From: Diplocarpon mali
Lineage: Eukaryota > Ascomycota > Leotiomycetes > Helotiales > Drepanopezizaceae
Direction of reading: 5' to 3'
Length of the DNA: 44,701 nt
Assembly (NCBI GenBank): GCA_024741835.1
Contig: JAENRP010000350.1
Location: 1 to 44,701 of the forward strand
Shown: positions 381 to 42,332 of the stretch, one piece after another
Layout of the letters: every line of letters begins with the position of its first letter
Numbering within the stretch: position 1 is the first letter of the stretch
Program-made: the position numbers and the translations under genes
Notes under the pieces: generated by a model
What the model saw: the letters and a program-made list of their open reading frames with translations, nothing else
Told to the model about the DNA's origin: nothing
Databases searched by the model: none

Positions 381-1034
381 CAACCTTTAGTACTTTGATA
401 GATTAACACAAATAGAACTACTATACCTTTCAAGGCAGCTTTTCATCTTAAGAACTATAGCAGCCTCTCTAAAGCCATTATTAGTCAACGCTCTTAAACA
501 GATCCCTTAGTTATAAGCGAAGTACAGAAGTTGTTTCTTCTTAATAAAGACGAATTAAAAATCCACCTTACAGAACATAATCAAAAACTCTTTAACGCCT
601 TTATTAATGCTTAGATAAACGTTATAAACACTAAGTTGCTTCTTTATAAACTTAAGTCTTAAGGATAACGCGATAAAGTAAATGCTATCTAAGAGCCCGA
701 TGCACTAATTGATAAAGATATTATTATAAGAAAATTCGGAAAAGAGACAAGCTGTAATACTAGCATAGTGCTAGACCCTGATTTAGGAACTAATCCCTTG
801 TTTTTACCCTTAAGATTAGAAACGCTAAGACTGACTCGCGAGCCTAGCCCGCAAGTAAGGTTAGACTTGGCTAGCTTTAGCCTATAAGATAGTTCGGATG
901 AACTTCGGCTATTAAATCTAGGAATACTAATAGAAGATCCTTTAAAAGAGGTCCCTAAAGCTGAGAAATCGCTAAGAAGTGAGAACTAGCGCAAGAGAAG
1001 AAGGCTCTAAAGTGACGATAAAACCGACAATTGA
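381..1034 (+). pseudogene. ORF1 of element E2, C-terminal part
   Basis: The 654 nt match 19699-20352 of E1 base for base in length and in frame, ending in the same genuine stop TGA (1032-1034). The protein is the last ~217 residues of the unrecognised ORF1 product: a mostly hydrophilic region with an Asn-Lys-Asp-Glu stretch, a palindrome-encoded segment at 834-856, an acidic/Ser-Leu stretch, and a very basic C-terminus rich in Arg and Lys that looks like a nuclear-localisation or nucleic-acid-binding tail. In-frame TAA/TAG codons are consistent with RIP of Gln codons. The N-terminal four fifths were removed at the X junction. Function unknown. Confidence 0.75.
834..856. repeat. 23-bp palindrome, copy 1 (ORF1 of E2)
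   Basis: Arms actcgcgagcc and agcccgcaagt around a central t. It lies before the basic tail of ORF1 and is the counterpart of the copy at 20152. Confidence 0.75.
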
Positions 1035-1597
1035 GTCGAGTGATCTAGAGAATCTAGCCTATTACTTTTAAAGAGGACCATTTAAAGAACTTATAAATTA
1101 GAGTTGAATTTTTTTTAAAATTATCTACTTCTTATATACTAGTACCTCTTTATTCTCTATTTATTATTCTATTCTATGCATATTCTTTACTCTACTTCGT
1201 TCTTTATATAATCTATTCCTTAATTATTTCCTTTATATGCAACTTTCTAACGCTTACCTTTAAAATGTTATCTTTACCTTTAATAAATTATCATTTACCA
1301 ATTATAGGTCCTTATATATATCACACCCTACTTTTGTTCCTACTTCCAGGCTTATTATGCCCACTTTTCCTTTGTATACTAATACGATTCTAAACTCTAT
1401 AAATAAGCCTTTCTCTGCATTATAATTTTACTTCTTTTACTTCTTCTATAACCCTATTAGTACTAGCACTAATAATACTACTAGTATTATCTTTCTATTA
1501 TCAATCTTTTCTAATCTAAGCTTCTAATCTCGATAAATTCTTTCTAGAGATTTACTCTTTAATAAGAAACCCTATCACTTTTATTAAATAATTCATT
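1035..1597 (+). other. ORF1-ORF2 spacer of E2
   Basis: Pyrimidine-rich, AT-rich DNA without a coding frame. It aligns along its length with 20353-20922 of E1. It holds many ttctact/cttta words and short C-rich runs such as those common upstream of fungal start sites, so it may carry a promoter for ORF2; no specific site is proven. Confidence 0.6.
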
Positions 1598-1725
1598 ATA
1601 GCCCCCCTTAGCATAAGTAAAAAGGTCACACCTAAGAAGAATATATCACTTATTGCCTTAGGTAGTAAGTCTTCGGCAACATCTAGTAATAAACTAATAT
1701 TAGAAGGTAGATTCTTATAAGATAG
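1598..1725 (+). pseudogene. ORF2 of element E2, segment 1 (N-terminus)
   Basis: The first 128 nt of ORF2. The start codon is read as ATA at 1598-1600, a RIP-altered ATG: the E1 copy has ATA at the same place, followed by a short hydrophobic run, a second M-like codon and a Ser-Lys-Lys motif. The frame is cut at 1725 by E1 and resumes at 24991; ATAG is duplicated on both sides. The product is unrecognised; see the fuller description at 20923-24396. Confidence 0.75.
1722..1725. repeat. Target-site duplication of E1, left
   Basis: ATAG directly before the 5' LTR; the same four bases follow the 3' LTR at 24987-24990. Joining the flanks over one copy restores the ORF2 frame. Confidence 0.8.
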
Positions 1726-1971
1726 TATAGAGACCTGAGATGGATAGGTCTTATGACATATATCACATAATCAGCGCAGGATAGTAAGAGGATAAAAGGG
1801 CCATCTTCTGTATATAGAGACAGCGCGCATCGCCATAAGTACTGAATATACCCTATACTTAGGACTTATTCCTAATATCTTATCTAAGAGAGCCCGCTTA
1901 TAGTACTTCCTCCTTTTGTTTTTAAGTCTTCCCTTAGGCCTATTCTTATATTATCTCCCTTTAGTTTTATA
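1726..1971 (+). repeat. 5' LTR of E1 (246 bp)
   Basis: Begins tatagagacc and ends agttttata, read as RIP-altered TG...CA ends. It has the same length as the 3' LTR and is nearly collinear with the E2 LTR at 35679-35925. It contains a conserved GGATAAAAGGG block, a tatatagaga block about 20 bp later, and GCGCGC. Confidence 0.85.
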
Positions 1972-2500
1972 TTAGTGACTTACGCAAGGACCGATTTCTT
2001 AAGATTTCCATCCTTATATAACCTTATCAATCTCTTAGTTTGCAAATAAGAGATCGGCCTTTAAAATACATCTTTGAAATACTTATAGCATTTTGATCAA
2101 CTTTAAAAACCTTATCCTTAATCGCCTATTTACTTAAAACTATCGATTTTCGTTTAGTAATTATTAATAACTTCAGATTTTCCCTTTTCGGCTTTGCTTT
2201 AAAAACCCCTATTTTCTTCCTTAACTCTGAGATTTTCGGAATTTTCGGCTTCTTAGTATAAAAGGTTTGGCGAACCTTATAATAGCAATCTCAAATAGTA
2301 GTAGTTTTAAGTACTTAAGTAATACTAAGCGCAAACTCTAACTAGAAGTACCTCTTTAGAATCTTTAGAAATCCGAATCCGATAATTCAGCTGCCTCGGC
2401 TTAATAGAACTTTAAAAATTGCCTTAGAATTGTCTCTAGAGACCCCTTTATTCTAAGGACTAATAGGAATTAGCCTAAAGGCTAAGAAGAATCTTAAATA
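1972..2500 (+). other. Leader of E1 with primer-binding region
   Basis: The bases after the LTR read ttagtgacttacgcaagg, where the tRNA primer site is expected; I cannot name the tRNA. The rest is AT-rich leader with no clear frame until gag. The exact gag start is lost, so the right-hand border is approximate. Confidence 0.5.
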
Positions 2501-2643
2501 TAAACCTTATTTTAGAAATTAGTCTTTAATTAAGTAAACCTTATCTTATTACAATTAATTATAATACTCCTATTAGCTATTTAACACTTACTTAAAATCT
2601 CTTAGCAAACTTAGATTAAACTTTTAATAGAATCCGGAATTCT

Positions 2644-2666
2644 ACTCTTAGGCCTAGCCTATAAGT
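2644..2666. repeat. 23-bp palindrome, copy 2 (gag N-terminus of E1)
   Basis: Arms actcttaggcc and agcctataagt around t. It reads through in the gag frame as LLLGLAYK-like residues. Confidence 0.75.
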
Positions 2667-3652
2667 AAGAGGATAAAAAGATATCCTTAAACAACCTAGG
2701 ACTATTACCTACTTTTTTAATATTAATATTAGAAAATATTAAAAATAATAACAATTTTAAACTTTTCACTAACCCTTTATTTAAATCTTTTCAAATTTAT
2801 CCTAATTACTCTAAGATTAACTCGGATTTTAAACGTTCTTTAAGCCCTTTTAAATTTCGAAGTACTCCTTTTAGCAATTAATCTTATAATATTAAAGCTT
2901 CCCCTTTGCCTTCTATAAATTCTATCAATTTAAATAGTTAGTATAAAACGATAATAGCCGCATTTAAGGCTATTATTAATCACTTTCCCCTCTTTAGTTC
3001 CCCTAGCGCTCCTCACTTTATAAGCGCTAATATTACTGATTTCCTTAAGCAATATAAAGAAACTTATTATAATTTTAATATTATATAAGAGGATATGATT
3101 TTTCGACTTCCTTACTACTATGATTATATAAGTAAGGATATTATCAAGTCCCTCCTTAAATAGAAAACTTATAGTTTATAAGAACTCCTTATTAAAGCCC
3201 TTAAATCTGAATTCTGCAAATTTGATAGATAGTAGATTTATAATACCTTAGCTTTCTTAAAGGAATTTATTCTGATTACTTATACTCTTAAGGAACTTAA
3301 GAACTACTATCGGACTTTTACTTGTATATCAAATACCTTAATTAGCTAGAAAATACTTAATAAAGTTGAAAAAGGCCGCCTTTTCTTACTCAGATTACCT
3401 ACTGGCTTTTAAAATAAGATTATTAAGCATTTTAGGATTAATAAGCAAGACCTTATAACCTTTGCCTTATTTAAGGAATTCTCAACCTTTGCTTTAAAAT
3501 CAGATCTTAGTAAAAGAACTATTGATACTATAGAGTAGGAAAAAGCCCTTACTCCTTCCTATACTAAAGACCTTAAGAGCTTAGTCTAAGAATACTCGAA
3601 AGCTTTAGAAGTTATAAAAGAGGTAAAGAAGAACTTAATAGTTATACCTTTC

Positions 3653-3675
3653 ACTTGCGGGCCCGACTTAGGAGT
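3653..3675. repeat. 23-bp palindrome, copy 3 (gag of E1)
   Basis: Arms acttgcgggcc and gacttaggagt around c, in the region between capsid and Cys-rich cluster, where gag proteins usually have a flexible linker. Confidence 0.75.
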
Positions 3676-5619: not shown

Positions 5620-5642
5620 ACTCATAGGCCAGACCCGCGAGT
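5620..5642. repeat. 23-bp palindrome, copy 4 (protease-RT linker of E1)
   Basis: Arms actcataggcc and gacccgcgagt around a. It is translated in frame as THRPDPRV, inside a 252-nt stretch (5524-5775) with no stop codon. Confidence 0.75.
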
Positions 5643-7586: not shown

Positions 7587-7609
7587 ACTCGCGGTCCTAG
7601 CCTATAAGT
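7587..7609. repeat. 23-bp palindrome, copy 5 (RNase H-integrase linker of E1)
   Basis: Arms actcgcggtcc and agcctataagt around t. The unrelated element G2 has a copy in the same linker (28807). Confidence 0.75.
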
Positions 7610-9021: not shown

Positions 9022-9044
9022 ACCTATAAGCCAGTCCTGCGAGT
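9022..9044. repeat. 23-bp palindrome, copy 6 (pol C-terminus of E1)
   Basis: Arms acctataagcc and gtcctgcgagt around a, beyond the integrase DNA-binding tail. Confidence 0.7.
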
Positions 9045-10284: not shown

Positions 10285-10307
10285 ACTTATAGTCCTAGAC
10301 TAGGAGT
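10285..10307. repeat. 23-bp palindrome, copy 7 (ORF1 of E1, codon ~276)
   Basis: Arms acttatagtcc and agactaggagt around t. The ORF2 counterpart is at codon ~296 (21811). Confidence 0.65.
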
Positions 10308-10316
10308 TAGAAATAA

Positions 10317-11995: not shown

Positions 11996-14900
11996 TTAGA
12001 GGTTTAATAAATGAATAAAGCTCTTAAACTTCTAGCAGTTTAGGTTCTTAATAAGCCTATCTGCGTATATTTCCCTAATAAGGAGGTAGATTATTTAAAA
12101 GCTTCCTCTTTAATACTTTTAGCAGATCTATATATTACTAATTTTAATATATTAAAGGCTTATCTTGATCTTCTTATTTTTTATAATAATTAGCCGAATC
12201 GTTTATTAGTTATTGCAATATATATTCCATTTAAAGAGGGAGTTTATACGAATCTCCTTAAAAAGGCGTTTTATAGCTATTATCTCCTTTATAATAGAAA
12301 CTATACTATAGAGTTCTACTTTAGTAGAAGAGAGCGTGATAATCGCTTAGTGATTCGCTTTTTAAATAATCGGTCCTTTAAATAGGAAGAAGACGTATCC
12401 TTAAGAGGATCTGCAGGTCTCTCGGTCATCTTTAAAAGAAGCATCTAAAGACGCGACCAATTGGTATTCCTTAGCCTTAAAGTTATAAGCAATTCCTAAG
12501 AAGCGTATATTATATAGGTATTGAAGCGTCTAGTCCGCAGCTAAAAGGTGCTTAAAGCTTAGATTAGTTAGAAAGAAAGACAATTAGAAGGCTGCGAATG
12601 CAATGTCTAGGCGTATTATAATCGCTATATAGAGAATAGAGCCTATTTTCTCTTAGTACTCCTTTACCTTTTTTAAGGAAGCTTGCCTTAAGTTTTTAAT
12701 AAACTCCTTCTTTAGTAGTAAAGTACTAAGCACTCTCCTTATATTAGCTCTGAACTTTTAAGCGATCTTCTTAATATAGGTATTATAAACTAAGGAGATC
12801 CTCTTTGCCTTCCTATTTCGAATAATCCTTACTTTAAGGAATTAGGAGATATCTCTTATAATAGTAAGCTTATACGCCTTCTTTAGGTCTTTAATTAGAT
12901 AAGTCGCTTAATCTAGGTTAGACGCCTTATATAATACTTAAATATCGTTAATATAAAATGCTATAAAGACTATGCGATCCTTTATTATGAAAATACAAGG
13001 CTCCTTGCCTAGTAGCTTAAGTTAAAGGCCCTTAAGCGTTCTTGCGAAGTTCCTATACTATAGTGCTAAAGAGTCTTTTAACTTATAGAGCGCGCGGTTT
13101 AGTTCTACTACTATACTAGGGCGCTTAAAGCCATTTAATAGGAAGTATATGACTAGAGTACTCCTTAGGTCTTTAGGAGCGTTGACAAATGCATTAATAA
13201 TATCGAACTGCTTTACTTTTATATTAAAGTACGCGGCAAGCGCTATTAGTACCTTAAAAGACCTTACTATAAGCGTGGCTGCGTAGGTTAAGAAAATTGA
13301 AGCTTTATCTTAAAGATCTCCTTGCATAACTAGCTATAATCGGCACTTTAAAAGCTTGCTTAAGCTATTGACCTTATAAGTAAAAACCCATTTTAATAGT
13401 ATTAGTAGAGGCTTTGAATAATCCTTTTATATAATTCTTTAGCAACTCTGAGATTTTAAATTCCTAATCTCCTAGCGCCCTCCTTCCTTAAATCGTTTGC
13501 TAAAAGGGTGCTTCTCTAAGTCCTACTATCCTTTTAAAGGCTTTAGTAAAGAGCCTTAGTACTATAGGCGGTTAAGAGACTACGCTCTATCCTTTACCTA
13601 ATTATTAATTGCAACTTTAATAACTATATAAACTATTAAATAGTCCTTCCTATCCTCCCTTATTTATTCATTTGCTTAAAAGGTTGATACAAACTCTTAT
13701 ATATATAAGGAGCGGGGTAAATTAATATTACTTTAAAAGAGTATATGCTCTAAAGCGGTAGCGTACACTTTTAAAGTCTCCTATTGCTTAATGCTTAAGC
13801 GTCTTATCCTCTTTTACTTAAGAAGAGGGAGTTCCTCTTTGCGCTTTTCTTTATAAGTCTCCTTTTCTATTTTTATTATTGCTAAAGGTTCCTTTAAGAG
13901 TCTAGGTAGCTCTATCTCTTAAGCCTATAGTCTTTGAGCTAGTATTATAACTTAAGGTATTATATTATTAAGGCCTACTCCTCTTATTAGGTCGCTTCTT
14001 ATAAGACTATTAAAGCTCCTCCTAGATCTTAGCAGTAATGCCTTTAGCCTTTTACTAAAGTTCACTAGGGCCTGCCTTTATAATTAAAGACTTTATCTTA
14101 AAGCCCTTAAGCTATCTCTATTCTTATATAGAATAGCAGTTAAAGATCTGCCGATCGCCTTATAGAACTTATCTTTAAAGACTCCCTTAAAGTCGTCTAT
14201 AGTTCCTTCTTTAATAGGGCCTCTATAGGGAATTATTACCTTTAAGCTTTAGTCGCCATTTGCCTTTTTAAAGACTAGTAAAGTAGCTTTTAGTTCGCTT
14301 GCTTCTACCCCTGAGTTTTTAAGCAGGTCTCTTAGAGAATTTAGATTTAAGTTAAGGCCTTTTATATTATTAGTTAGAGGCTATAGAGCAGTATCGGTTT
14401 ATAATATAGGCTCTTTTTATACGGCGGCTTCTTTTGCAGCGATTGCGTTCGGCCTTGCGATAAGCTTCGATTCTTTAAAAATGCCTTCGAACTTAGTATT
14501 CTAAGCTCTTTCTCCTTCTCTAATCAATTAGAGGGTTATCTTAAATTCCTAGCGCGATATAGGGTTTACGCGCTCTGCTTCTAGACTATAGAAGAGAGAC
14601 TTATCGAATTCGATATTATAAGTTATTATTACTCGCTAGAGTATAAGAACCCAGATTCTATAAATATTAGAGGTAATATATTTAATTAAGTAACTTAAGT
14701 GCCCTTATAGTTTAATTTTAAAGGTTCGGCGGTCCCTTCCTGCCTCCCTTTTCCTAATTAAAGGGTATATGCAAGCGCTATATATATAAATGCGACTTTA
14801 GTTAGGCTTTAAGCTTGCTATTATCTACTTAATAAGTAGCGGCTTATAGAATTGAAAATACTACTTAAACTAATTATAAAGAGCCTTGCTTAATGAGATT

Positions 14901-17509
14901 ATCTTCTTCTTAGTAAGTAGGGAGATATTATAAAGGTATATAATAGCCTTTATAACCTTTGGCCAAAGGCTTACTAAAAGCCTAGCGTAGATTCTTATTT
15001 TAATAAAGCGCTTAATCAATTCCCTTTTTACTTGCTCTGTGCCTCTATTAAGTTGATATATATAGGCGGAAGTAAGCTTTAAATCAATTCCCTCCTCTTT
15101 TACCTATCTCTAGTACTTTATAAGAGAGTCTTCCCTTAGGGAGATTACTAAAGTATTATTATCTTACCTGATTTTGCAAATAGAAAGCCTATATTAGTGT
15201 TTCACTTATACTTTAAAGGCCTAGAGGACTTCTATAATTATATCTCTGCCCTTCGATCTTAATAGAAATGTCTAAAGTATACTACTATACTTATCTTTAA
15301 TTAAAAGAACCTATAAGCAACTATTATATAAATTGTTTAAAAAGTCAAAGAGATCCTAGGAGATCTTAAAGAAGGGCCTTAAAGATCGATTCTTAAAGGT
15401 AGCGTAAGAAATAACTTGCCTAGCAGACGCTACTACGTATATAGGGCACTTTAGCCTCTATATTCCCTTGATCTTCACTCCCTTAGCATACTTAACTAGC
15501 GCTTAAAGAGCCTTTGCGCCTAGGTGGTCAGCGCAAAAGTGCTAAGTATATACGTTGTTATCCCGTACCTTAATAGGTGCATAGCTAGACTAAAACCTAT
15601 TATAAAGCGTTGTCTTAGCTATAAGGAATGCTATTAAAGTAAAGAAGTTATATTAAAGCATATTTGAAAGATTTAAATAATTGATAGGCTTATATTTAAA
15701 GAAAATGAGATTATGGCAACGCTTTAACTAAGCTCGCTTTATAGAATCTCTAATACTCCTAAAGCGTAAAGTGAGGTCTACTCTAGAGTATTAAAAACCC
15801 TTGTTTGCAAGGAGCCTCTTTAAGATAATATTAGTAGTAAACTCCTTTATAATAGCAATATTATATAGTATTATCCTTATAAGAGAGCCGTTATACTATA
15901 AAAAAGAGTCTGCTATATATCTATTACCTCTCCTAATGATTAGGAGTCTTAAAGTACCTACTTTAATATATTGCTGCGAGTCGCCAAAAGGCTTAAAGGT
16001 GCCTATAATAAGTAAATCCTTCGAATTAATAATATAAGTAGCTACGCAATTATTAAAGAGCGTACTTAAGGAGAGCAGATAGCATTTTAGCTTAAAGAGG
16101 TAGTAGATATTAAACGATTCTTTAAAAGCGTCAAAGGCAAAGGGATCTATTATTATAAAGACTAATAAGTTCTCCCTTTTATTACCTAAACTGTCCTCCC
16201 TAAAGGCTAAAGCCTTTCCTTTGAATTTATCAATTGCTATTACTATAATATCATTCTCCTTAAGCTATGCTCGAAGACCCTTGAACTAGTCTTTTGCGTT
16301 TAACGCCTTTTGTATTCGTAAGACCTCCTCTCGCAAGGGGAGAACCTTTATATTTTCCTTGTGCCTATCTATAGCATATAATAGTTTCCGATAGTCCTAG
16401 GGCTTCTAATAGTGATTTTTAAAGCCTTTATAAGGGCACTTAGGCCTAATCTCCCTTTTAAAGCTTATAGAGCGATTTTAGGAGCTGCTTGCTAAAGCTT
16501 GCGAAGGGGTTTCGGCATCTAAGAGAGACTCTTAAGTAGTAAAAACTGCTAGCCCTTTATTATCGATCGCTCTATTAGATTCAATGCTTACTAGGGCGCG
16601 GCTTAGCTGCATTAGGTCGTACTTATATAGGGTTCCCATTTGCTTATTAGTAATGATTTCCTCCTTTAGGCGAGTCGCTTAACTCAGATTGATCTTTACT
16701 ATAACTAAGTCTAAAAAATCAATAACTCTTAGTCTCCTTTTAATCTTAAGGAGATTGTATTATTCTATTAAGCAGTACGCCTCCTACTACTCCCAGATCT
16801 ACTATTAAGTATTAGTTCTCCTAGTTTTGCCTTAGTATAATATATCGCAGTACTAGAGCCTTGTCTAAGACTAAATAGCCTTATCGGAAGGCGTAATATC
16901 ACGCTTTAAAATAGATACTAAGCCTTAGAGTAAGAGTTGCTAGTTTACTAAATTAATATATAGGTCGTTAGCAATAGTTCCACTTATAGGAGTATCTCTA
17001 TTAAGTATTAAGAAGGAGAGCTTCTTAGCTTAGATTTATACTTAAGCTATTGCAGAAGCTAAGAGCGTTCTATCAACGGTCTTAGAGACCTATTCTAAGA
17101 GTAGCTTATAGTATTTGTATTAGGTCTTCTAAGTCTCCTTGCGTATATAGTGCTCCTTTATTAGAATTTCATATTTATCCTTAATATCTTTATAAGAAGC
17201 CTATAGAAGAGGAGCTTTTAACAGGTCTCCTAGGGGAAAGCAGGCGTAAATCTATTTAAATAGAGTCGCTATATACTCTTTATACAACCTCGCGTATGCT
17301 ATGCAAAGGTTAGCCGTTTCCAATTCCTTAAGCTCCTATATAGAGGGAGCTTAAGGCTTAGTCTTTATAATTGACTTAAATAGGAGTCTCGGATTGGCAA
17401 AAATAGTGATATTATAAAGCTTAGCAAAGAATATATATTTATTAAACTACTTTACTTAAAAGGCAGAGGTATTAAGGTAAGGCTTAGAGATGCTTAAAGA
17501 GTCAGATAT
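11996..17509 (-). pseudogene. gag-pol of C1 (Ty1/copia)
   Basis: Reading right to left, gag starts at an ATA (RIP-altered ATG) at 17509-17507, followed by SDSLSISKPY; the gag part extends to about 16300, and no clean CCHC knuckle is visible. The gag-pre-integrase region is near 15350-15560 (HLGAKAL and a CPI/CVVAS-like Cys motif). The integrase core lies about 14800-15350, with its last block reading LNRGTEQVKREL then LWPKVIKA. Reverse transcriptase lies about 12900-13900, with YIND for YVDD at 12944-12955. RNase H has its Asp-Ala-Ser-Phe at about 12450 and the closing motif ADRL-KNL near 12060, stopping at TAA 11996-11998. Frames are kept; the stops are RIP-type. Confidence 0.8.
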
Positions 17510-17714
17510 ATTAAATAGAGTTTAGTGAAAAAGGTTAAGTATATAAATGAAGTTTGCAAATAAGGTTCGATCGGAAATTAGAGATTTATTAATTGAAAAT
17601 AAAGGTCCTTTAAGTCGTTATAAATACTCGAAAAGTCGGTCAGGAGCTTAAAGGGCCCTTTAGCCGGTTGCATATAAAGAAAAAGCATATTAAAATGCTT
17701 ATAAGGCTTATAAC
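17510..17714 (-). other. C1 leader and primer-binding site
   Basis: Between the 5' LTR and gag. Read on the minus strand, the first bases after the LTR are gttataagccttataagc, the usual place of a copia primer-binding site; the TTAT(A/G)AGCC core also starts the C2 internal region (41258). Confidence 0.55.
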
Positions 17715-17912
17715 TATAGTGCGGTCGGCTAAAGGGCCTTCATTAGGTCGCTTAAGAGGCTTGCTAATATAAATGAAGATAATTGATTATATTATTATCT
17801 AATATATATATAGTAAGGAGACTTCAGAAAGAAAAGGGGAAGTCTATGACTCAGCAGGAGTCACGTAGAGGGTCTCTAGAATAAGTAGAGACTCCGCCCA
17901 TTCTGCACGACA
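17715..17912 (-). repeat. 5' LTR of C1 (198 bp)
   Basis: Starts tatagtgcgg and ends ctgcacgaca on the plus strand. It retains the CA end and is less mutated than the 3' LTR. Confidence 0.9.
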
Positions 17913-19266: not shown

Positions 19267-19289
19267 ACTCGCGGTTCTAGCTTATAAGT
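19267..19289. repeat. 23-bp palindrome, copy 8 (ORF1 of E1, codon ~738)
   Basis: Arms actcgcggttc and agcttataagt around t. Confidence 0.75.
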
Positions 19290-20151: not shown

Positions 20152-20174
20152 ACCCGTAAGCCTAGCTTGCAAGC
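20152..20174. repeat. 23-bp palindrome, copy 9 (ORF1 of E1, codon ~1033)
   Basis: Arms acccgtaagcc and agcttgcaagc around t. It is the counterpart of the copy at 834. Confidence 0.7.
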
Positions 20175-21810: not shown

Positions 21811-21833
21811 ACTTGTAGGCCTGGCCTACGAGT
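21811..21833. repeat. 23-bp palindrome, copy 10 (ORF2 of E1, codon ~297)
   Basis: Arms acttgtaggcc and ggcctacgagt around t, translated TCRPGLRV. One of the best-preserved copies. Confidence 0.8.
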
Positions 21834-21996: not shown

Positions 21997-22019
21997 ACTT
22001 ATAGGCCTAGCCCGCGGGT
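21997..22019. repeat. 23-bp palindrome, copy 11 (ORF2 of E1, codon ~359)
   Basis: Arms acttataggcc and agcccgcgggt around t, translated TYRPSPRV. It is 186 bp (62 codons) after copy 10 and in the same frame. Confidence 0.8.
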
Positions 22020-23226: not shown

Positions 23227-23249
23227 ACTCCTAGGCCTGGCTCGTAGGT
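23227..23249. repeat. 23-bp palindrome, copy 12 (ORF2 of E1, codon ~769)
   Basis: Arms actcctaggcc and ggctcgtaggt around t, in the opposite half-site order to copy 10; reads TPRPG in frame. Confidence 0.8.
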
Positions 23250-24048: not shown

Positions 24049-24071
24049 ACTCCTAGGCCCGGCCCGCAACT
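24049..24071. repeat. 23-bp palindrome, copy 13 (ORF2 of E1, codon ~1043)
   Basis: Arms actcctaggcc and ggcccgcaact around c; reads TPRPGPQL in frame. Confidence 0.8.
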
Positions 24072-24473: not shown

Positions 24474-24496
24474 ACTCTTAGGCCCGGCCTATAGGT
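24474..24496. repeat. 23-bp palindrome, copy 14 (3' UTR of E1)
   Basis: Arms actcttaggcc and ggcctataggt around c. It lies outside any coding frame, so coding is not required for its presence. Confidence 0.8.
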
Positions 24497-24507
24497 AAAA
24501 AGCGTAT

Positions 24508-25750: not shown

Positions 25751-25773
25751 ACTTATAGGCCTAGCCTATAAGT
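25751..25773. repeat. 23-bp palindrome, copy 15 (ORF2 of E2)
   Basis: Arms acttataggcc and agcctataagt around t; counterpart of copy 10, with both arms RIP-altered. Confidence 0.75.
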
Positions 25774-25936: not shown

Positions 25937-25959
25937 AGTCGCGGGCCTAGCCTATAGGT
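25937..25959. repeat. 23-bp palindrome, copy 16 (ORF2 of E2)
   Basis: Arms agtcgcgggcc and agcctataggt around t; counterpart of copy 11, also 186 bp from its neighbour. Confidence 0.75.
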
Positions 25960-26908: not shown

Positions 26909-27149
26909 TGTTACGACTTGCTCTGGAGCGTACAGAGGGGCGATAATCGAGTAACGCTGACTGTATTACCTCAAGAGGTACGCTATATAATAGAGAAGAA
27001 AAGATGAAGAAGAGAGAGTCTTTAGTAGAGCTCCTCTAGAATAAGTACAGGTGCTTTACTAGCGTATATATAATCTAGCCGCCTTGCTACCTTAGCGTGC
27101 ACCTGACTTTGATATATGATATAACTGTGCATATAATGCGGCTGTAATA
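26909..27149 (-). repeat. 3' LTR of G2 (241 bp)
   Basis: Starts tgttacgacttgctctggag and ends cggctgtaata on the plus strand; here the left end kept TG while the other end is RIP-altered to TA. Confidence 0.9.
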
Positions 27150-27165
27150 CTACCTCCCCCCTTTG
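27150..27165 (-). promoter_or_regulatory. Polypurine tract of G2, overlapping the pol stop
   Basis: On the minus strand: caaaggggggaggtag, touching the 3' LTR. In the pol frame it encodes Lys-Gly-Gly-Arg and then TAG (27150-27152), so the primer for plus-strand synthesis is part of the gene. Confidence 0.75.
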
Positions 27166-28806
27166 AAAAACTGCGCTTACGCAGTTGTATCTATAGGCGT
27201 ATTATCCTTTAGGTCCTTATAATCGTCAATTCTATTATTATATAACCTAAGCCAGCTTGATAGCGCCCTTAGTGGCCCCTTAGCTTAAGGCTTCTTTAGA
27301 TGGAAATCTTAAATAGTATGCGGCGCTATTATAGCATTAGAGCATAGGTACTATTTGAGGTCTTTATTAGCTCCTTTTTACTTAATCTAATATTCGAGCT
27401 TCTTAGCTTAAATACAGGATCCGATTATTTCTTCTATCTCCTATTCCTTTTGTTTTAGTAGTACTTTAATTAGGGCAAGAGGTTCCTAAGCTTAGCCTAG
27501 TAAAGGGTTGGGAACGTATTTCCGCAATAAGTGGGAGTAGAATATAAGGTAGATTGAAAAGAGCGAATCAGGCAATTGAAGCTTTTAGCTTTCTCTTAGC
27601 TTTTCTAGTACTTTTATTAAGCTATACTACTTATCAGAGAGCTTTCGGCTTAGCCGGTTCAGTTTCCAGTTTTTAATACTAATTAGTACGTCATCTTTTA
27701 TAGTCTAATCAACTGGCTGGCGGTAAAGGTCTATAAGCTATTTCATTTTAGCTTATTATACTTAAAGAGATAATTAAGCGAATTAGACTACTTTTTAAGC
27801 TTTAATAGCTATATAAAGTGCTGTTTTATGATTTAATCTCTCAGTTGCTATCTATAGAGGCTCTAGGTTAATTAAATTCCAAAAGAAGCGAGCTTTATAG
27901 CTATTTAGCACTTGGAAAGGGGAAATTTGCCCTAAGGATTCGTAAGGTAAGGTCAATTAGGCAATATTTATCAAAGGCAAGAGGCGACTCCAATTGTCTT
28001 AATAGTATAAGTAGAATAGTCTAAGGCGTTATTTTAAGTACTAGTTTATAATCTTAACTTAGCTATTAATATTAGGGTTATAAACTATAGTTAGCTTGAC
28101 CTTTGTACTTAATATCTAATAAAGCTCTTTTTAAAAGGTAAAGATAAATTAGGCGCCTTTATTTAATAGAATTGAGTTAGGCATATTAAAATGGTATATC
28201 TAGTAAGTTAAAAACAACTCTACAAGGCCTTTTGTATTAATTGTCTTATAGTATAAGATCGATACTACCTTCTTTAATAATCGGTCTATTATTACTAATA
28301 TAAAGTTGTAGCTAAGTTTATTAAGCGGGAGCTTTATAAAATCTATAATCAAGTGTTAATATACTCATTTAGGAATTGGTAAAGGTTATAGGAAACCTAG
28401 GGTTTTATTATAATAAGCTTTTATTCTCGAATAATAATAGTTCTAAATATAAGTGCTAATATCGCTATTAAGGCTTTTCTAATAGTATTTTCTTCCTATT
28501 AGAAGCCTTGTTTTCCTAATTCTAATATATATAACGCAAGGTTACTTATATATATAACGAATTAGGGCTATTTATAGTTTAGGAGGTTATAATAGCATAA
28601 CGAGTCTACTTTAAAAGAAGAGTTTGCCTTAGCTGAGTTCGTAGTCGAGGCTATGGCTCTGCGCCTTAACTCGGAACTTCTATAGCTTAAGGGAGGTCTT
28701 ATTAGCTTAAATGACCTCGTTGATAATATAGTAGTTCGCTATATTATACTTAACCCTAGACATTAAGTCGGCAGGTGCCTCTATTAGCGCGATTGGCACA
28801 CTTATC

Positions 28807-28829
28807 ACTTATAGGCCAGGCCCGCGAGT
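28807..28829. repeat. 23-bp palindrome, copy 17 (RNase H-integrase linker of G2)
   Basis: Arms acttataggcc and ggcccgcgagt around a; read in the minus-strand pol frame as STRGPGLQV. Confidence 0.8.
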
Positions 28830-30692
28830 AGAACTGCCTTTGGTGGCAAGTACTTTTATAAAAAGCTTATCGTCAGGCAAGAGCTGCTAGTAGCGTAAAG
28901 CTTATTTCCTAGCCTTAAGAGGGGTTAGCTCTTAGTCTTAATATAAGAGTATATTAGCTAATATATTCGTTATACCTATTTGGTATATAATAAGGAAGTT
29001 GAAATTAGTAAAGAACTCCGCCTAGCGAGCCTACCGGGCTATTAAGTCCTTAGTTATTATAAAGTACTTAAGGGCCTTATAATCTATATATACGCGTACT
29101 GTTTTCTAAGCCCTAAGTAGCTTTGTCTTATATTAGTAGAACGATCTAAAAATCGCTAGGAGCTCCTTATTATAAATAGGGTAATTCAGCTTAGTATTAT
29201 TCATAATCTTTAAGAAGTACCCGATTGGGTGGTAGTTATTATCTTCTTAGAGTTAGGAGAGTACGCTAGCGATTATACTATCGGAGGCGTTGGTCTTAAG
29301 CCTTATCTACTTCTAAAGGTAATAGTAGTATAAAATCGGGGTTGTTTAAAAGCTTAAGCATAGAGTTTCCTAAGCTTCTTTATAAGCGTTATTGAAATCA
29401 AAAGGAATATTCCTTATAAGAGCTATTAAGGGTCGGCAAATACGACTATAGCTTTAAATAAACCTTCGGTAGAAGTTACAGAACCCTAGGAAGCTCTATA
29501 CGCTGCATACATTCTTAGTATATTTCTACTCCTAAATGACTAAGACCTTATTAGGGTTTACCTCAATTTTATAAACTCTAATAATAAACCCTAGGAACCT
29601 AGTCTTAGTAACCCCAAACTCGCTTTTCTTAATATCTGCTTAAAGGCTATAATATTAAAGAATTCCTAAGATCTTCTTAATGTAAATCTTATAATTAAGG
29701 GAGTTTTCTAAGTAGATTAGAATATTATTTAAGTAAGTAGAGTAGAAATTGTTAAAGTACTTAAGGAGAATATTATTAATAAACCTTTAAAAGGTAGCAG
29801 GCCTATTTATCAGCCCGAATAGTAAAACCTTATACTTATAGGTCCTATAGCGCATGCGAAAGGTAGTTAGGTCCTTAGCATCAGCTGATATGCAAATATA
29901 GTAGAAAGCTTATTATATATCGATTTTTATAAAAATATAAGCTTTTGATATATATACTATTATCTTATTAATAAGTGGAATCAGGTAGGGGTCTTTCTTT
30001 ATTAAGGCATTTAGTTTCCGATAATCGATATATAAATATAAGGAGCTATTAGCTTTTCTAATAAAGAGGATTAGGGCTACCTAAGGGGAACTCGAAGCTT
30101 TAATAAATCCTTTGTATAGGTTCTTAAGAATATAGCTCTTAACCTTAAGAGCTATTTATTAATAAGGTAGCAAAAGGGTTCGATTATTAAGTTATTCTCG
30201 CCTATTAGTTCGATTTTATAATTTACCCTTAGCTTAGTTTCTAGCAGCTGATCAAAGGCCTAGCGGTTAAAGATGTTTTTAAACTTAGCGTACTAAGGCA
30301 GGAGCTTTTAATCTATTAGCTTATTATTGCTCTTATACTTAGCTTGCAGCGCCGAACTAAGGCCAAGGGAGCTAATTTCAGCTTGCTTAGCCGATTCTTA
30401 GCGATTAATCTCTTAGTCTAGATTATAAATAGAGCTTACGAATATAAACTCTTTAGGCGCCGGTTCTTAAGTTTGTATAGCTTATCTTACCCTAGTTATA
30501 AAGTAGTAGTAGAGGGCGCCGATTACTAAGGCTAAGATTAAGCTGATTTAATAAGCCGTCTTTAAAGGAGCGTTCCTCTTTATTAAAAGAGAGAGCAAAA
30601 GGTCTAGTACTTTTAATAAGGCCTTCTTTATATAATTCAGATCTCTTTTTAAGTCTTTAAAGAAACTGCTATCCTTAAGTTTGTAAAAGGCT

Positions 30693-30715
30693 ACTTATAG
30701 GCTAGGCTTAGGAGT
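30693..30715. repeat. 23-bp palindrome, copy 18 (protease-RT linker of G2)
   Basis: Arms acttataggct and ggcttaggagt around a; first unit of a 45-bp tandem duplication. Confidence 0.75.
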
Positions 30716-30737: not shown

Positions 30738-30760
30738 ATTCGCAGGCTAGGCTTAAGAGT
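30738..30760. repeat. 23-bp palindrome, copy 19 (protease-RT linker of G2)
   Basis: Arms attcgcaggct and ggcttaagagt around a; exactly 45 bp from copy 18. Confidence 0.75.
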
Positions 30761-31299: not shown

Positions 31300-32780
31300 T
31301 TAAAAACTAGCAGCTGCTTATTAATAGGCGGGAATCAAAATCTAAGTCTTTTTATAAATTATAATCTATACTATAGTAAGAGTCTTTACCATAACTTAAT
31401 AGTTTCCTAATAGTAGGTCGTTTTCTATCTTAACTTTAGCTATTATAAACTTACCCTGCTTCTTTAGCTTAAGGCAGTCTATTGCATAGTAATTAGGGGC
31501 TCTATAGTTATAGTAGAGACTAGACGACGGCTTTAGGCTAGCAGACCTTTCTTAATAGGCCGCTAGCAAGGGGAAATAATTGCAAGGAGCTAAGGAGGTA
31601 GCTATGGCTATAGGTCTTTATAACTCCCTTTTTAATATACTAAGGACGCGGTCCTTTAAAAGGGAGAATGCGATAGTAGGGGTAACTCGTCAAGTGTTAT
31701 AGGCTTCTTCTTACTTAATATTATAGGCTTCGCGGTCTATAATAGCTAAGAACTCATTTAAAGTAGTATAATTATTATTCATTTTATACTTCTTTACTTA
31801 AAGGTCGTTCTTTAAGGCTAAGGAGACCTTTTTATAGATATTATTAAACTAGCGAGTCTAATCGATTTTGCTAGCTATAGTAAAGGTAATAAACTTAGAT
31901 TAGAACTTATTATATAATATTAAACCTATAGTTAGCCTATTATATTTAAGCTTAATAGATTAAATATAGTTATAGTTAAAGAACCTTTAATCTAAGACCT
32001 TAAAGATATTAGCAGTATATATAAACTTATTAGTAAAGATAGGATTTATATATTATAAGATTAGGTTTTAAGCTTTATTTATTATATATTTAAAGTAGGT
32101 AGTGATCTAATCCTCTCTTAAAGTAAAGTTGCTTAAGTACTTTTAAATAAATACCTTTATAGCTATCTTCTAAGTGTTATAGGTGATTTTGCCCTAGTAG
32201 TTACTAAAATGGGTTTAAAGGTACTTAATTTAATAAGGGTCGACGGCTAAGACTAAAGGTTAGATGATTAAGAGGTAGTAGTCTAGGAAAGGCAGTAAGT
32301 TAGCGGTAAAGGACCGAGTATTCTAAGGGCTAGCACTTAAAGAAGAAGGGGCAGTAGTATTATTTTAAAAAGCGGTAGCTATAGTAGTGCTAATAAGGTT
32401 CGCAATTCTAGCCTATTAAGTAATTGAAAAGAGAGGGGCTAATATAGTAAAGGTAGATGTTATTAAAGAGAGTATATCTTCTTCTTTAACTTTAATTGAT
32501 AGTAATAGAGTATTTTAAGAATCTACTTATAGGCTAGGCTTAAGAGTAGAATCTATACTAAAGGAGGTTTCTTCTTAAGTAAGCTTAAGAGGGAGAATAA
32601 CTCTAGGACTAGGGTTAGTAGTAAGGCCTATAGAACTAGTGGCAATAAGGCCTAGTGAACTGGTAGTAGTAAGGCCTAGTAGTAAAAGTGCGGTTAACCT
32701 TTTACTTCTCTTAAGTGGTATAAGATTAAAGGTTATAAGTACTAACTCTTCTTATATTATCTAATTTAGTCTAAAGGGAC
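31300..32780 (-). pseudogene. gag of G2
   Basis: Minus-strand capsid gene. The N-terminal third is Ser/Thr/Leu-rich and carries a palindrome (32525). The middle (about 32330-31750) has the Tyr/Phe/Lys-rich helical pattern of a retrotransposon capsid. A CCHC zinc knuckle remains at about 31470-31520, with RIP-altered positions (C-x2-Y-x4-Y-x4-C, where the first Y would be Cys and the second His). The start codon is uncertain, so the right-hand border is approximate, as is the border with pol. The same gene is at 38500-39900 in G3. Confidence 0.7.
32525..32547. repeat. 23-bp palindrome, copy 20 (gag N-terminus of G2)
   Basis: Arms acttataggct and ggcttaagagt around a; G3 keeps it at 38707. Confidence 0.75.
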
Positions 32781-34207: not shown

Positions 34208-34230
34208 ACTCCTAGGCCTGGCTTATAGGT
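34208..34230. repeat. 23-bp palindrome, copy 21 (ORF2 of E2)
   Basis: Arms actcctaggcc and ggcttataggt around t; counterpart of copy 12. Confidence 0.75.
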
Positions 34231-35029: not shown

Positions 35030-35052
35030 ACTCCTAGGCCCGGCCTGCAACT
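35030..35052. repeat. 23-bp palindrome, copy 22 (ORF2 of E2)
   Basis: Arms actcctaggcc and ggcctgcaact around c; counterpart of copy 13. Confidence 0.8.
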
Positions 35053-35377: not shown

Positions 35378-35678
35378 TATCTAAGTTAGTACTATTTTTA
35401 ATTATTTTTACGATTCTATAGTTTGTTTGTTTATTTTGCTAATCTCGTTTTCTAACTCCTAGGCCCGGCCTATAGGTGAAAAGGCGCATATATAAAAACT
35501 CTTTCTTTTTTTTCTTTTACCTTTAATAATAATATAGCCTTAGTTTAAGCCTTTTAATATATTAGTTTTCTCGCACTTAAGGTTTCCTAATGATTAATAT
35601 ACTATTGCCTTAACCTATATTATCTTATATTCTTTGCTAATAGTAGTAGAGGCTACTACTTTTATTATTTAAGACATA
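35378..35678 (+). other. 3' UTR of E2
   Basis: Matches 24397-24740 without the gap. It ends in tttattatttaagacata (35661-35678) directly against the LTR. Confidence 0.65.
35455..35477. repeat. 23-bp palindrome, copy 23 (3' UTR of E2)
   Basis: Arms actcctaggcc and ggcctataggt around c; counterpart of copy 14. Confidence 0.8.
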
Positions 35679-35925
35679 TATAGAGACCTAGGTATAGATG
35701 AATCACGTAACAAAAGTCATATAATAGGGCAGGGCCGATAGGAGGATAAAAGGGACCTCCTTTATATATAGAGATAAGCGCGCAGCGCTATAGTACTAAA
35801 TATACCCTATACTTAGGACTTGTTCCTAATATCTTGTCTTAGAGAGCCTGCTTGTGGTGCTTCCTCCTCTTGTTTTTAGGTCTTCCCTTAGGCCTATTCT
35901 TGTGTTTTCTCCCCTCAGATTTATA
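35679..35925 (+). repeat. 3' LTR of E2 (247 bp)
   Basis: Starts tatagagacc and ends agatttata. Third copy of the E LTR. The DNA after it is the remainder of a C2 copia LTR. Confidence 0.85.
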
Positions 35926-36068
35926 TTGCTTAGTTAGTAGGATATTAATACGTATATAGCTATAAAGAAGAAAGGGGTAACCTTCCTTCCCTAACTCTTA
36001 CTAATATATCGACCATCGACCTCTAGAAGCCTCCTTTACCTACTGCGCCGACTAACTTAAGTTCAATA
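35926..36068 (+). repeat. C2 copia LTR, 3' 143 bp (target of E2)
   Basis: Corresponds to bases 53-195 of the 195-bp C2 LTR (41115-41257), the same 143 bp in length. Its first 52 bp would lie left of E2, beyond the X junction. It sits inside gag of the old C1 copy, so it was probably a solo LTR or an element end there. Confidence 0.8.
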
Positions 36069-36759
36069 CTCTTAATCTTATCTTAGCGTAGTACGTCGTA
36101 GTATTAAAGCCTTATTTAGGATTAAATAGCCTTATTAAAAGGCGCAATATTACGCTTTAAAATAGATACTAAGCCTTAGAGTAAAAGTTGCTAGTTTATT
36201 AAATTAGTATATAGGTTATTAGTAGTAGTTCTACTTATAGGAGTATCTCTACTAGGTATTAAAAAGGAGAGCTTCTTAGCTTGGATTTAGGCTTAAGCTA
36301 TCGCAGAGACTAATAGCACTTTATTAATAATCTTAAAAACATATTTTAATAATAGATTATAATGCTTTTACTAAGGCTTTTAAGTTTCCTTATATATAAG
36401 GTATTATTTTATTAGGATTTATACTTATCTTTAATATCCTTAAATAAAGCTTATAAAGGTAGAGCCTTTAAAGGATTTTTTAAAGGAAAGCAGACGTAAA
36501 TCTATTTAGCTAAAGTAGCTGCGTACTCTTTATAAGACCTTATATACGCTATATAAAGGTTTGCTATTTCTAATTTTTTAAGCTTTTAAATAAAAGGAGC
36601 TTAAGGCTCTATTTCTATAATTGATTTAAATAGAAGTCTTAAATCGGCGTAAATAGTAATAATATAAAGCTAAGCGAAGAATATATATTTACTAAACTAC
36701 TTAATTTAAAAGGCAAAGGTATTAAAGTAAGGTTTAAAGATACTTAAAGCGTTAGATAT
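36069..36759 (-). pseudogene. gag of the second C1 copy, N-terminal part
   Basis: Starts at ATA (altered ATG) 36759-36757 and runs left to the C2 LTR. It is the same capsid gene as at 17509 leftward, about 230 codons, with many RIP-type stops. Its C-terminal part and pol are absent. Confidence 0.65.
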
Positions 36760-36962
36760 ATTAAATAGAGTCTAAAAAAAGGTTAGGTATATAAATGGAA
36801 TTTGCAAATAAGGTTCGATTAAAAAATAGAGATTTATTACTTAAAAATAAAGGTCTTTTAAGTTATTATAAATATTTGAAAAGTCGGTTAGAAGCTTAAA
36901 GGGCCCTTTAGCTAATTATATATAAAAAGAAAGTATATTAAAGTGCTTATAAGGCTTATAAA

Positions 36963-37159
36963 TATAGTATAGTTAGCTTAAGGGCCTTTATTAGATCGCT
37001 TTAAAGGCTTATTAAAGTAGATAAAGATAATTGATTATATTATTATTTAATATATATATAATAAAAAGACTTTAAAAAGAAAAGGGAGAGTCTATGACTT
37101 AGCAGAGTCACGTAGAAAGTCTTTAGAATAAGTGGAGACTCCCCCCATTCTGTACGACA
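36963..37159 (-). repeat. 5' LTR of the second C1 copy
   Basis: 197 bp, starts tatagtatag and ends ctgtacgaca; one base shorter than the C1 LTRs. Confidence 0.8.
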
Positions 37160-38706: not shown

Positions 38707-38729
38707 ACTTTTAAGTCTAGCCTATAAGT
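38707..38729. repeat. 23-bp palindrome, copy 24 (gag N-terminus of G3)
   Basis: Arms acttttaagtc and agcctataagt around t; the most decayed copy, recognised by position and length. Confidence 0.6.
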
Positions 38730-40496: not shown

Positions 40497-40519
40497 ACTC
40501 TTAGGCCCGGCCTATAAGT
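40497..40519. repeat. 23-bp palindrome, copy 25 (linker of G3)
   Basis: Arms actcttaggcc and ggcctataagt around c; first unit of a 45-bp tandem pair. Confidence 0.8.
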
Positions 40520-40541
40520 GGCCTTTGCGAAATTGGATTCC

Positions 40542-40564
40542 ACTCCTAGGCCTAGCCTATAAGT
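40542..40564. repeat. 23-bp palindrome, copy 26 (linker of G3)
   Basis: Arms actcctaggcc and agcctataagt around t; 45 bp from copy 25. Confidence 0.8.
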
Positions 40565-41062: not shown

Positions 41063-41257
41063 TGTTAAGATAGGTAATATAGCCATCACTCTAATGTATT
41101 ATCATATGACCCTACTGCTTAGTCAATAGCATATTGATACGTATATAGCTATAAGGAAGAAAAGGGTAACCTTCCTTTCTTAACTCTTATTAATATATTG
41201 ACTATCAACCTTTAAAAGCCTCCTTTACCTACTGCGCCGACTTACTTAAGCTTAATA
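41063..41257 (+). repeat. 5' LTR of the plus-strand C2 (195 bp)
   Basis: Starts tgttaagatagg and ends aagcttaata (altered CA end). It is followed at once by ggttataagccctag, a copia-type primer-binding site. Confidence 0.85.
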
Positions 41258-41381
41258 GGTTATAAGCCCTAGCTAGACTGATAACTGATTATTAACTTCC
41301 TTTAAAAAGCACTTGCACCGCAACTATTAATAAGAAGTTGAATAAGACTTATAGTAAAAGGCAAGCAATCGGCGAATAGGA

Positions 41382-41501
41382 GGTATAATTCCCTATTTAG
41401 CCAACCTATATTATAAAAGGTATAATTCCTTATTCTATAACCTTAGTACTATAAGAGGTATAATTCCTTACTTTACTATATTTTATAAGAGGTATAATTC
41501 C
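41382..41501 (+). repeat. Four direct repeats in the C2 leader
   Basis: ggtataattcc begins at 41382, 41419, 41457 and 41491, a spacing of 34-38 bp with variable DNA between. Regularly spaced leader repeats suggest a protein- or RNA-binding array; the role is unknown. Confidence 0.7.
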
Positions 41502-41639
41502 CTGCGTTATAACTTGAAAACCCTTTTCGATAAGAGGACTTCCTTCCTATTTAATACTTTTATAATACCTACTATTTAATCAATTTGATATTTCGATAGG
41601 AGGAGTACCTTTTACTATTTAATTAATTTAATTTTAATA

Positions 41640-41847
41640 TATGTTCTCTTTAAAATAGTAATAGCTTCCGATTCCGATCGAAATACTAGACTTAAAGACT
41701 TCTAACTCTTTTAAAAGAACTAGTAATAATAGTTCGACGATTTAAAGCTTTACTTTAAAAGCAAAGGCATTAAAATAGCAATTTAAAAGACACTTATTAA
41801 ATACGTAAGAATAGCCCCTTATACTCCTTTTATTAATTTATCTACTT
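41640..41847 (+). pseudogene. Start of gag of the plus-strand C2
   Basis: One frame reads with RIP-type stops (Asp/Ser/Arg-rich start, then a LYFKSKGIKIAI-like segment and YVRIAPYTPFI), resembling the N-terminal part of a copia gag. Cut after about 70 codons by the next C2 LTR. Confidence 0.5.
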
Positions 41848-42042
41848 TATTGAGCTTAAGTGAGTCGGCGCAGTAGGTAAAGGAGGCTTCTAAAGGTCGA
41901 TGGTTGATATATTAGTAAGAGTTAAAGAAGGAAGGTTACCCCTTTCTTCCCTATAGCTATATATGTATCAATATCCTATTAATTAAGCAATAGGGTTATA
42001 TAATAATATATTAAAGTAATAGCTATATCACCTATCTTAATA
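41848..42042 (-). repeat. 3' LTR of the minus-strand C2 (195 bp)
   Basis: The reverse complement starts tattaagataggtg and ends aagctcaata; the same length as 41063-41257. The two form a large inverted repeat around the fragment 41258-41847. Confidence 0.85.
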
Positions 42043-42050
42043 CCCCTACT
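42043..42050 (-). promoter_or_regulatory. Polypurine tract of the minus-strand C2
   Basis: agtagggg on the minus strand, immediately before the 3' LTR. Confidence 0.65.
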
Positions 42051-42182
42051 TAGACCTTACTCCAATTGACCTATAGTTAGGAAAAATAATAACTATCCTT
42101 TTGCGCTAATCTAATTCTTAGGTATTTCTTTAAATTAAAAATAATTAATTAATAGTAACCTCTATTGAAATTATTAAACTCC

Positions 42183-42205
42183 ACTTATAGGGTAGGACTA
42201 GGAGT
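42183..42205. repeat. 23-bp palindrome, copy 27 (C2 3' UTR)
   Basis: Arms acttatagggt and ggactaggagt around a. Confidence 0.75.
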
Positions 42206-42246
42206 CAATTTTCTTAAAAATGTTCCTTTATAAGACTACGTGATTT

Positions 42247-42269
42247 GACTTGCGGTCTAGGCCTAGGAG
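42247..42269. repeat. 23-bp palindrome, copy 28 (C2 3' UTR)
   Basis: Arms acttgcggtct and ggcctaggagt around a; it shows the two half-site types (cgg-type left, cctagg-type right) clearly. Confidence 0.8.
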
Positions 42270-42309
42270 TCGATTTAAAAAACTTTCCTTTATAAGACTA
42301 AGTGACCTG

Positions 42310-42332
42310 ACTTATAGGGCAGGCCTAAGAGT
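42310..42332. repeat. 23-bp palindrome, copy 29 (C2 3' UTR)
   Basis: Arms acttatagggc and ggcctaagagt around a. Confidence 0.75.

Follow-up and report, generated by a model that had tools for sequence, protein, structure and literature searches.

The window analysed here is the whole of contig JAENRP010000350.1 (C350 in our numbering) from the Diplocarpon mali assembly GCA_024741835.1, a stretch of 44.7 kb (44,701 nucleotides) that is AT-rich and lacks any open reading frame (ORF) of 150 amino acids. It carries repeated copies of a 23-bp imperfect palindrome, referred to below as the unit, whose undecayed form is ACTC-S-CGG-K-CC-N-GG-M-CCG-S-GAGT. Sites were detected with a decay-aware score that tolerates C-to-T and G-to-A changes; a scan for perfect palindromes used alone was rejected, since decayed copies escape it. 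At a score of at least 20 the window holds 30 sites and the reversed window two (one of them at 24 or more), leaving about 28 real copies. This agrees well with the 29 copies counted in the initial annotation, whose end positions, 834 and 42332, are also ours. The two half-site types that it described are both present, but both prove to be C-to-T/G-to-A decayed versions of ACTC-G-CGG-K-CC and ACTC-C-CGG-K-CC. Sites were grouped into position classes by flank similarity (L-numbers are loci fetched from the genome, C-numbers are contigs). They are listed below with two remnants of pol genes containing reverse transcriptase (RT); no strand is assigned to the palindromes.

834..856, palindrome, score 37.2; class L021:5277, ~14-kb RT-bearing element; read in frame 0 across 10 copies
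2644..2666, palindrome, score 31.0; class L018:263; frame ambiguous
3653..3675, palindrome, score 34.0; class L018:1272; frame 0 has fewest stops in one copy, ambiguous over 3 copies
5620..5642, palindrome, score 36.5; class L018:3350; frame 0
7587..7609, palindrome, score 30.9; class L020:5399, the sole class read in frame 2
9022..9044, palindrome, score 25.3; class L018:6752; frame ambiguous
10285..10307, decayed palindrome, score 23.7; class L022:6759; frame 0
11999..13387, minus strand, Copia-like RT remnant without a palindrome inside the match; tblastn 26-29% identity to L031 pieces
19267..19289, palindrome, score 27.7; class L015:4074 / L069:166; frame 0 has fewest stops in one copy, ambiguous over 8 copies
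20152..20174, decayed palindrome, score 22.8; second copy of the class at 834
21811..21833, palindrome, score 34.0; class L015:6603; frame 0
21997..22019, palindrome, score 30.9; class L015:6789; frame 0
23227..23249, palindrome, score 30.9; class L015:8019; frame 0
24049..24071, palindrome, score 33.2; class L015:8841; frame 0
24474..24496, palindrome, score 28.6; class L015:9266; frame ambiguous, perhaps non-coding
25751..25773, palindrome, score 29.4; second copy of the class at 21811
25937..25959, palindrome, score 26.9; second copy of the class at 21997
27147..30259, minus strand, Gypsy A pol remnant (RT, RNase H, integrase) hosting the palindrome at 28807; tblastn 67-72% identity to main L025 pieces
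28807..28829, palindrome in Gypsy A pol (minus strand), score 36.5; in the interval between RNase H and the integrase zinc-binding domain by homology to L025/L026; frame 0 has fewest stops
30693..30715, palindrome, score 30.1; first unit of a tandem pair (45 bp) that lies upstream of the Gypsy A RT; ambiguous in frame
30738..30760, palindrome, score 31.7; second unit of that tandem pair; ambiguous in frame
32525..32547, palindrome, score 29.4; lies upstream of the Gypsy A RT and reads in frame 0; flanked on each side by AGAATCT, a perfect 7-bp direct repeat
32600..32622, weak, decayed site resembling the palindrome, score 21.3, near background
34208..34230, palindrome, score 27.7; second copy of the class at 23227
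35030..35052, palindrome, score 31.6; second copy of the class at 24049
35455..35477, palindrome, score 29.3; second copy of the class at 24474
38707..38729, palindrome, score 26.2; inverted second copy of the class at 32525, with AGATTCT on both sides
40497..40519, palindrome, score 32.6; inverted second copy of the tandem pair
40542..40564, palindrome, score 31.7; inverted second copy of the tandem pair
42183..42205, palindrome, score 23.7; in a three-unit cluster with spacings of 65 and 62 bp, where no frame is clearly open
42248..42270, palindrome, score 31.6; same cluster (42183-42332)
42310..42332, palindrome, score 28.6; same cluster

The three-palindrome cluster is also found at L038:1037-1186 and L042:22-174, with a spacing of 61-66 bp and no clear open frame.

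The genome-wide scan that the initial annotation had proposed covered the 49.37-Mb assembly (676 contigs), which is the scope of all genome-wide figures. It returned 1,311 sites within three mismatches of the general form, against two with a reversed-pattern control. A further three patterns, for each of which the reversed control gave zero, returned 653 sites within two mismatches of one form of the unit, 565 exact matches to ACTNNNNGGCCNGGCCNNNNAGT and 376 sites within three mismatches of a 35-bp extended pattern. Among the matches listed the unit lies on dozens of contigs, and it is found inside the pol gene of long terminal repeat (LTR) retrotransposons; a mitochondrial location does not agree with this. 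The exact general form was absent from bacterial and archaeal genome contigs and from viral contigs, a comparison that did not include the sequences of Rickettsia palindromic elements themselves.

The constant 23-bp length given in the initial annotation was upheld. Undecayed arms are always 1 bp apart, with no case of spacings from 2 to 31 bp genome-wide, and a larger transposon sharing undecayed ends within 31 bp was rejected for the same reason. None of 52 exact half-sites in the fetched DNA lacked a partner with three or fewer mismatches, and partnerless half-sites numbered 2/61 at one mismatch and 5/88 at two, six of these seven being in GC-richer loci, as background would give. Beyond the 23 bp there is a weak symmetric extension, S-R-A-W-T-Y-S on each side and facing the unit, in which position -2 is a pyrimidine in 60/60 half-flanks (30 classes).

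Classification of the sites gave 30 position classes once 8 singletons of GC-richer loci had been removed, and 37 after further fetching (163 sites). The nine GC-richer loci (L005-L013) were excluded from class counts, and L002 and L003, which are contained in other loci, from both class and frame counts. These 30-37 classes have differing flanks and are spread over at least three elements, namely Gypsy A, a Copia element and the ~14-kb RT-bearing element, rather than being confined to homologous positions in one ancestral family, the alternative that the initial annotation had raised. Only the unit and its degenerate flank are common between the families.

In Gypsy A the unit lies between the RNase H (RT_RNaseH) and the integrase zinc-binding (Integrase_H2C2) domains, 1,233 bases past the start of the RVT_1 match in the four copies listed (C48, C82, C29, C15); the Gypsy copies L027-L029 have no unit in the stretch fetched. 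The Copia element matches Pol_BBD, gag_pre-integrs and RVT_2, with SH3_retrovirus (integrase) slightly under the cut-off. Its copy L031 has two units before the protease-like Pol_BBD region, two between integrase and RVT_2, one downstream of pol, and none between the protease-like region and integrase. The pol units of both families sit in the linkers that separate domains. In the Copia 3' region (L021, L023, L024, L031, L033), CACCCCTTARTAA-like and GGGTGATTTTTT-like words are repeated around the palindrome.

The ~14-kb element has 14 units in fixed order (C1:430263-444568, that is L018:263 to L019:4568), 13 of them scoring at least 22 and one more decayed, and four of its classes are repeated on C12 at distances that agree within about 15 bases. 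Pfam searches of its naturally open pieces gave nothing credible. Since its RT has weak similarity to Gypsy RT (tblastn E 3e-6 to 8e-5), with RT-like motifs in L100, the element may itself be Gypsy-like. L100, from C12, gives a less decayed stretch of this divergent, Gypsy-like RT.

The initial annotation had placed the copies in unrelated retrotransposons. This stands in so far as Gypsy, Copia and a third RT-bearing element carry them in coding and non-coding places, but the Copia-like RT of the window has none: copies in the window are in Gypsy A, the ~14-kb element and the stretch at 42183-42332, and the palindrome-bearing Copia lies elsewhere in the genome. Ten of the eleven AT-richer 10-kb loci (L014-L024, several of which were picked because of matches) contain a site scoring at least 22, L016 being the one that does not. 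The nine GC-richer loci, unannotated but presumed to bear genes, cover 90 kb at GC 0.48-0.60 and contain none at 28 or above; their 8 sites at scores of 22-26 correspond to the background level. This 90-kb sample suggests that the unit may be missing from host genes.

Reading frame was assessed by counting stops per frame over copies with enough flank, the sense being taken from RT direction or flank homology. The test covered 25 of the 37 classes, sense being unassigned in the other 12, and placed 16 in frame 0 and one (L020:5399) in frame 2, with 8 ambiguous. Frame 0 was therefore found in 16 of 17 callable classes (p = 2.7e-7 if these are independent); when six Copia array units are merged into two linkers the count is 12/13 (about 1.7e-5 by hand calculation). 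When stops were counted automatically in all six frames with the sense unknown, competition from antisense frames made the result uninformative, with two confident classes, both in frame 0. The unit's own frames 1 and 2 are stop-free in the undecayed form. Both orientations occur within ORFs, and frame 0 of either strand encodes the same kind of peptide, T-(R/P)-G-P-G-P-(R/G)-V when undecayed. The copies had initially been described as interrupting gag, pol and accessory genes, whereas one frame continues through them. Since the same frame is open on both sides, an insertion must add a net length divisible by 3, which 23 alone is not.

For lengths of 3-12, the left flank was compared with the right in direct orientation. 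Direct identity peaks at 7 bp (0.436 against 0.341 in shuffled flanks, p = 0.0002; 37 classes, inferred ancestral letters), and with the best copies the 7-bp repeat gives p = 0.0012 over the 37 classes. In a joined-flank search with Copia, 36 of 38 separate right-hand matches start within the left 7-mer (query 84-86), where a duplication would place them. These comparisons are suggestive of a target duplication of about 7 bp, and 23 + 7 would give a net insertion of 30 bp that keeps the frame.

The two arms of the unit tend to be of different kinds. At position 5 the first 50 exact sites listed comprise 44 C/G, 6 G/G and no C/C, where 9.6 C/C would be expected (p = 0.00005 on the assumption of independent copies, which holds only in part), and all 7 G/G exact sites in the genome differ at position 9. 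No undecayed site seen (the first 50 exact sites listed and the 7 G/G sites) has two identical arms; by hand calculation about a quarter of the 50 would be expected to if arms joined at random, although copies are not independent. Among the 163 fetched sites perfect arm pairing occurs in 5, all of one class, where random joining of arms would give 5.5, so the absence of perfect pairing is limited to the exact set. Possibly, perfect palindromes have been lost or never moved.

A shared unit with differing flanks, residence in both coding and frameless places, arms that come in two kinds, occurrence in either orientation and an AT-rich target of symmetric form are together best fitted by an ultra-short, once-mobile insertion element that entered retrotransposon families at AT-rich target words, a reading that we hold tentatively and with confidence just short of even. 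We infer that the unit moved. Each insertion would have duplicated about 7 bp of an SRAWTYS-like target, so that the 30 bp added amount to 10 codons and preserve the frame, and selection would have purged insertions that broke frame or fell in host genes. After entry the unit would have been copied passively with its retrotransposon and multiplied locally by unequal recombination. As 23 bp cannot encode an enzyme, the moving enzyme would have to come in trans, from a retrotransposon or from the host. The bolder version of this reading, in which the unit is a selfish 23-bp parasite of parasites and the smallest known eukaryotic nuclear insertion element, with SRAWTYS targets across superfamilies, a 7-bp duplication and ten added codons translated as T-(R/P)-G-P-G-P-(R/G)-V, is possible but on balance doubtful.

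Several results weigh against the insertion-element reading. No enzyme for movement was identified, no transposase search having been made, and no bigger element with the ends of the unit was found (spacings 2-31 bp genome-wide; longer spacings were not searched genome-wide). The 7-bp signal is not exclusive: over 37 classes lengths 6 and 10 likewise give p = 0.005-0.012; with array classes removed (23 left) length 7 gives p = 0.004 and length 11 p = 0.007; and with low-complexity flanks also removed (19) length 7 gives p = 0.02 and inverted identity at length 4 p = 0.025. The strictest set (19) with best copies gives p = 0.07 for length 7, a perfect 7-bp repeat occurs in 1 of 37 classes (AGAATCT at 32525), and in the Gypsy A joined-flank search 16 of 20 matches start at 91-96, with no clear duplication. 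The supply of targets does not account for the frame preference, and was rejected as its source: target-like words in seven pol stretches number 32 (frame-0 phase), 28 and 14. Third positions 9, 12 and 15 of frame 0 vary synonymously, a pattern that would also agree with selection on the peptide. Because some classes are units of one tandem array, independent entries are fewer than classes.

Empty sites were also lacking. No empty allele was found in 316 near-copy alignments of this genome; 142 distinct homologous places have a 23-bp gap, and none has a gap below 18 (range -15 to 160). No empty site emerged from the joined-flank searches, in which 40/175 (Copia) and 40/161 (Gypsy A) candidates were scored. 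Finally, sites of the unit evolve no slower than their flanks (10.7 against 11.4 transversions per 1,000 in 292 unfiltered pairs). The copies are thus not visibly conserved after amplification of the retrotransposon, which speaks against a per-copy function in decayed DNA. A slower evolution of the palindrome (9.0 against 16.4) had appeared because the sites compared had been chosen by score; it was rejected, as the rates are about equal once the score filter is dropped. The initial annotation had counted a failure to find filled and empty alleles as evidence against a mobile element, and within this genome no empty one was found; its proposal of mobility is no more than plausible.

Gaps of 18-28, in the examples inspected, belong mostly to the T-rich Copia 3' class. 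Among related proteins, P0002 (Diplocarpon coronariae) carries the peptide of the unit, and the best match to it in this genome is 94%. P0003, an ENA protein with 79% identity across 45% of the query, has a Gypsy linker that lacks the unit, its boundary being uncertain, and P0004 stops short of the place and is uninformative. The gene models P0001 and P0002 are incomplete.

Instead of an insertion, the palindrome could be the core of an in-frame coding minisatellite (45- or 54-bp steps) that was shuffled between families by template switching or recombination with no insertion enzyme. The arrays have such a form. All unit steps listed in coding arrays (45, 54, 72 or 87 bp) are multiples of 3; the Copia integrase-RT linker, with these steps, has 1-4 units according to the copy (L074-L091, L093, L031) and amounts to a coding minisatellite, and the Gypsy A linker has 1-4 units of 45 bp. 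At L092 (C55:34260-34700), ~1.5 kb upstream of an RVT_2 match, about 8 TPxPGxRV units (counted by eye) follow one another in one frame with one stop. The frame shared by 16 of 17 callable classes also fits a coding repeat. Its spacers, however, differ by family, leaving only the 23 bp and degenerate flank in common, and copies also occur where no frame is open, in the Copia 3' region (18 copies) and in the 42183-42332 cluster, where spacings of 65 and 62 bp are not multiples of 3. We consider this origin unlikely. Neither the Copia linker (9 candidates) nor the L092 array (31 candidates) found anything when used as a protein query.

The strict spacing of half-sites and the symmetric extended flanks would suit a DNA site for a dimeric protein, gathered by retrotransposons for expression, silencing or integration. 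Fungal Zn2Cys6 factors bind inverted triplets, and CGG-N7-CCG, which is present within the unit by inspection, resembles these. Such a candidate site does not predict residence in Pol linkers, a single frame or the lack of C/C, and it is at odds with evolution no slower than the flanks and with the absence of sites at 28 or above from 90 kb of GC-richer DNA, so that we rate it as quite unlikely.

It is also improbable that the peptide T-(R/P)-G-P-G-P-(R/G)-V acts as a polyprotein processing or hinge signal. The units do fall at domain borders, in Copia ahead of the protease-like region and again between integrase and RT, and in Gypsy A between RNase H and integrase; the single frame of 16/17 callable classes and the synonymous variation at positions 9, 12 and 15 would follow. 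Against this, third positions 3, 6, 18 and 21 scarcely vary by transversion (0, 2, 1 and 0 in 292 pairs), which fits conservation of DNA, units occur in frameless places and several to a linker, and neither the fetched stretches of Gypsy copies L027-L029 nor the interval between the protease-like region and integrase in a Copia copy has one. An RNA or DNA hairpin retained for its fold, an option in the initial annotation, is very improbable, for although 9 or 10 of 11 arm pairs match at every one of the first 50 exact sites listed, none has fully complementary arms (44/50 are mismatched at position 5) and the perfect pairing in 5/163 fetched sites, all of one class, is what chance gives (5.5).

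As an insertion element, the unit would resemble Rickettsia palindromic elements and mitochondrial GC clusters in its working while being a member of neither group. Rickettsia palindromic elements lie in frame in many genes and are ~100-150 bp long. The initial annotation had drawn this parallel, and with respect to in-frame residence it holds (16/17 callable classes), as it does for the many unrelated positions. The elements are bacterial, far longer and found in host genes, whereas the unit is 23 bp long, apparently nuclear and eukaryotic, and retrotransposon-borne, with none at 28 or above in the 90 kb of GC-richer DNA. One account describes them as transposable palindromes inside protein-coding sequence that do not abolish enzyme activity (PMC6649704). 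It also reports mitochondrial bypass elements of Magnusiomyces, which are palindromic and interrupt protein genes but are untranslated (PMC6649704); the unit keeps frame, and its translation would be expected.

Yeast mitochondrial GC clusters (GC42) share with the unit a short GC-rich palindrome within AT-rich DNA. Merger and shuffling of units is a further common point, whereas presence or absence at homologous positions is demonstrated for GC42 (PMC4478555), and the sections concerned mention no frame rule; unlike these clusters, the unit looks nuclear. The clusters have short direct repeats at their ends; the 7-bp excess in the flanks of the unit, which would be the counterpart, ranges from p = 0.0002 (37 classes) to 0.07 (strictest set, best copies). 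Palindromic (A)n/(T)n repeats of Fusarium mitochondria, which the corresponding section of their report proposes to be mobile because they are optional between species (PMC7218506), are likewise short fungal palindromes, but they are mitochondrial microsatellites of other sequence. Miniature inverted-repeat transposable elements have inverted arms, no coding capacity and target duplication (here possible, on statistical grounds); the unit, in contrast, has no interior between arms that are 1 bp apart, nothing longer that shares its ends was seen and no transposase is linked to it. Fungal GalEa Copia elements have, in the part of their description on this site, a conserved 9-bp hairpin at the end of the 5' LTR (PMC5445492), likewise a conserved palindrome in a fungal Copia but different in size, place and sequence. 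Repetitive extragenic palindromes (REP) are intergenic and have a cognate Y1 transposase (RAYT), whereas the units here lie in transposon ORFs.

In-frame palindromic insertions (in Rickettsia) and mobile palindromes (in organelles) are already known, and no paper describing the unit was found in a literature search, which left out most subscription journals. A 23-bp unit in the Gypsy and Copia polyproteins of a single, apparently nuclear genome would establish that transposons can harbour such elements. It would offer a testable case for the spread of a short sequence between retrotransposon families that otherwise share no surroundings, and it provides a readily scored marker of inter-family exchange with countable array units.

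The window also contains further repeat families without palindromes (16818-17904 and 36069-37152; 35924-36068, 41113-41257 and 41848-41992).

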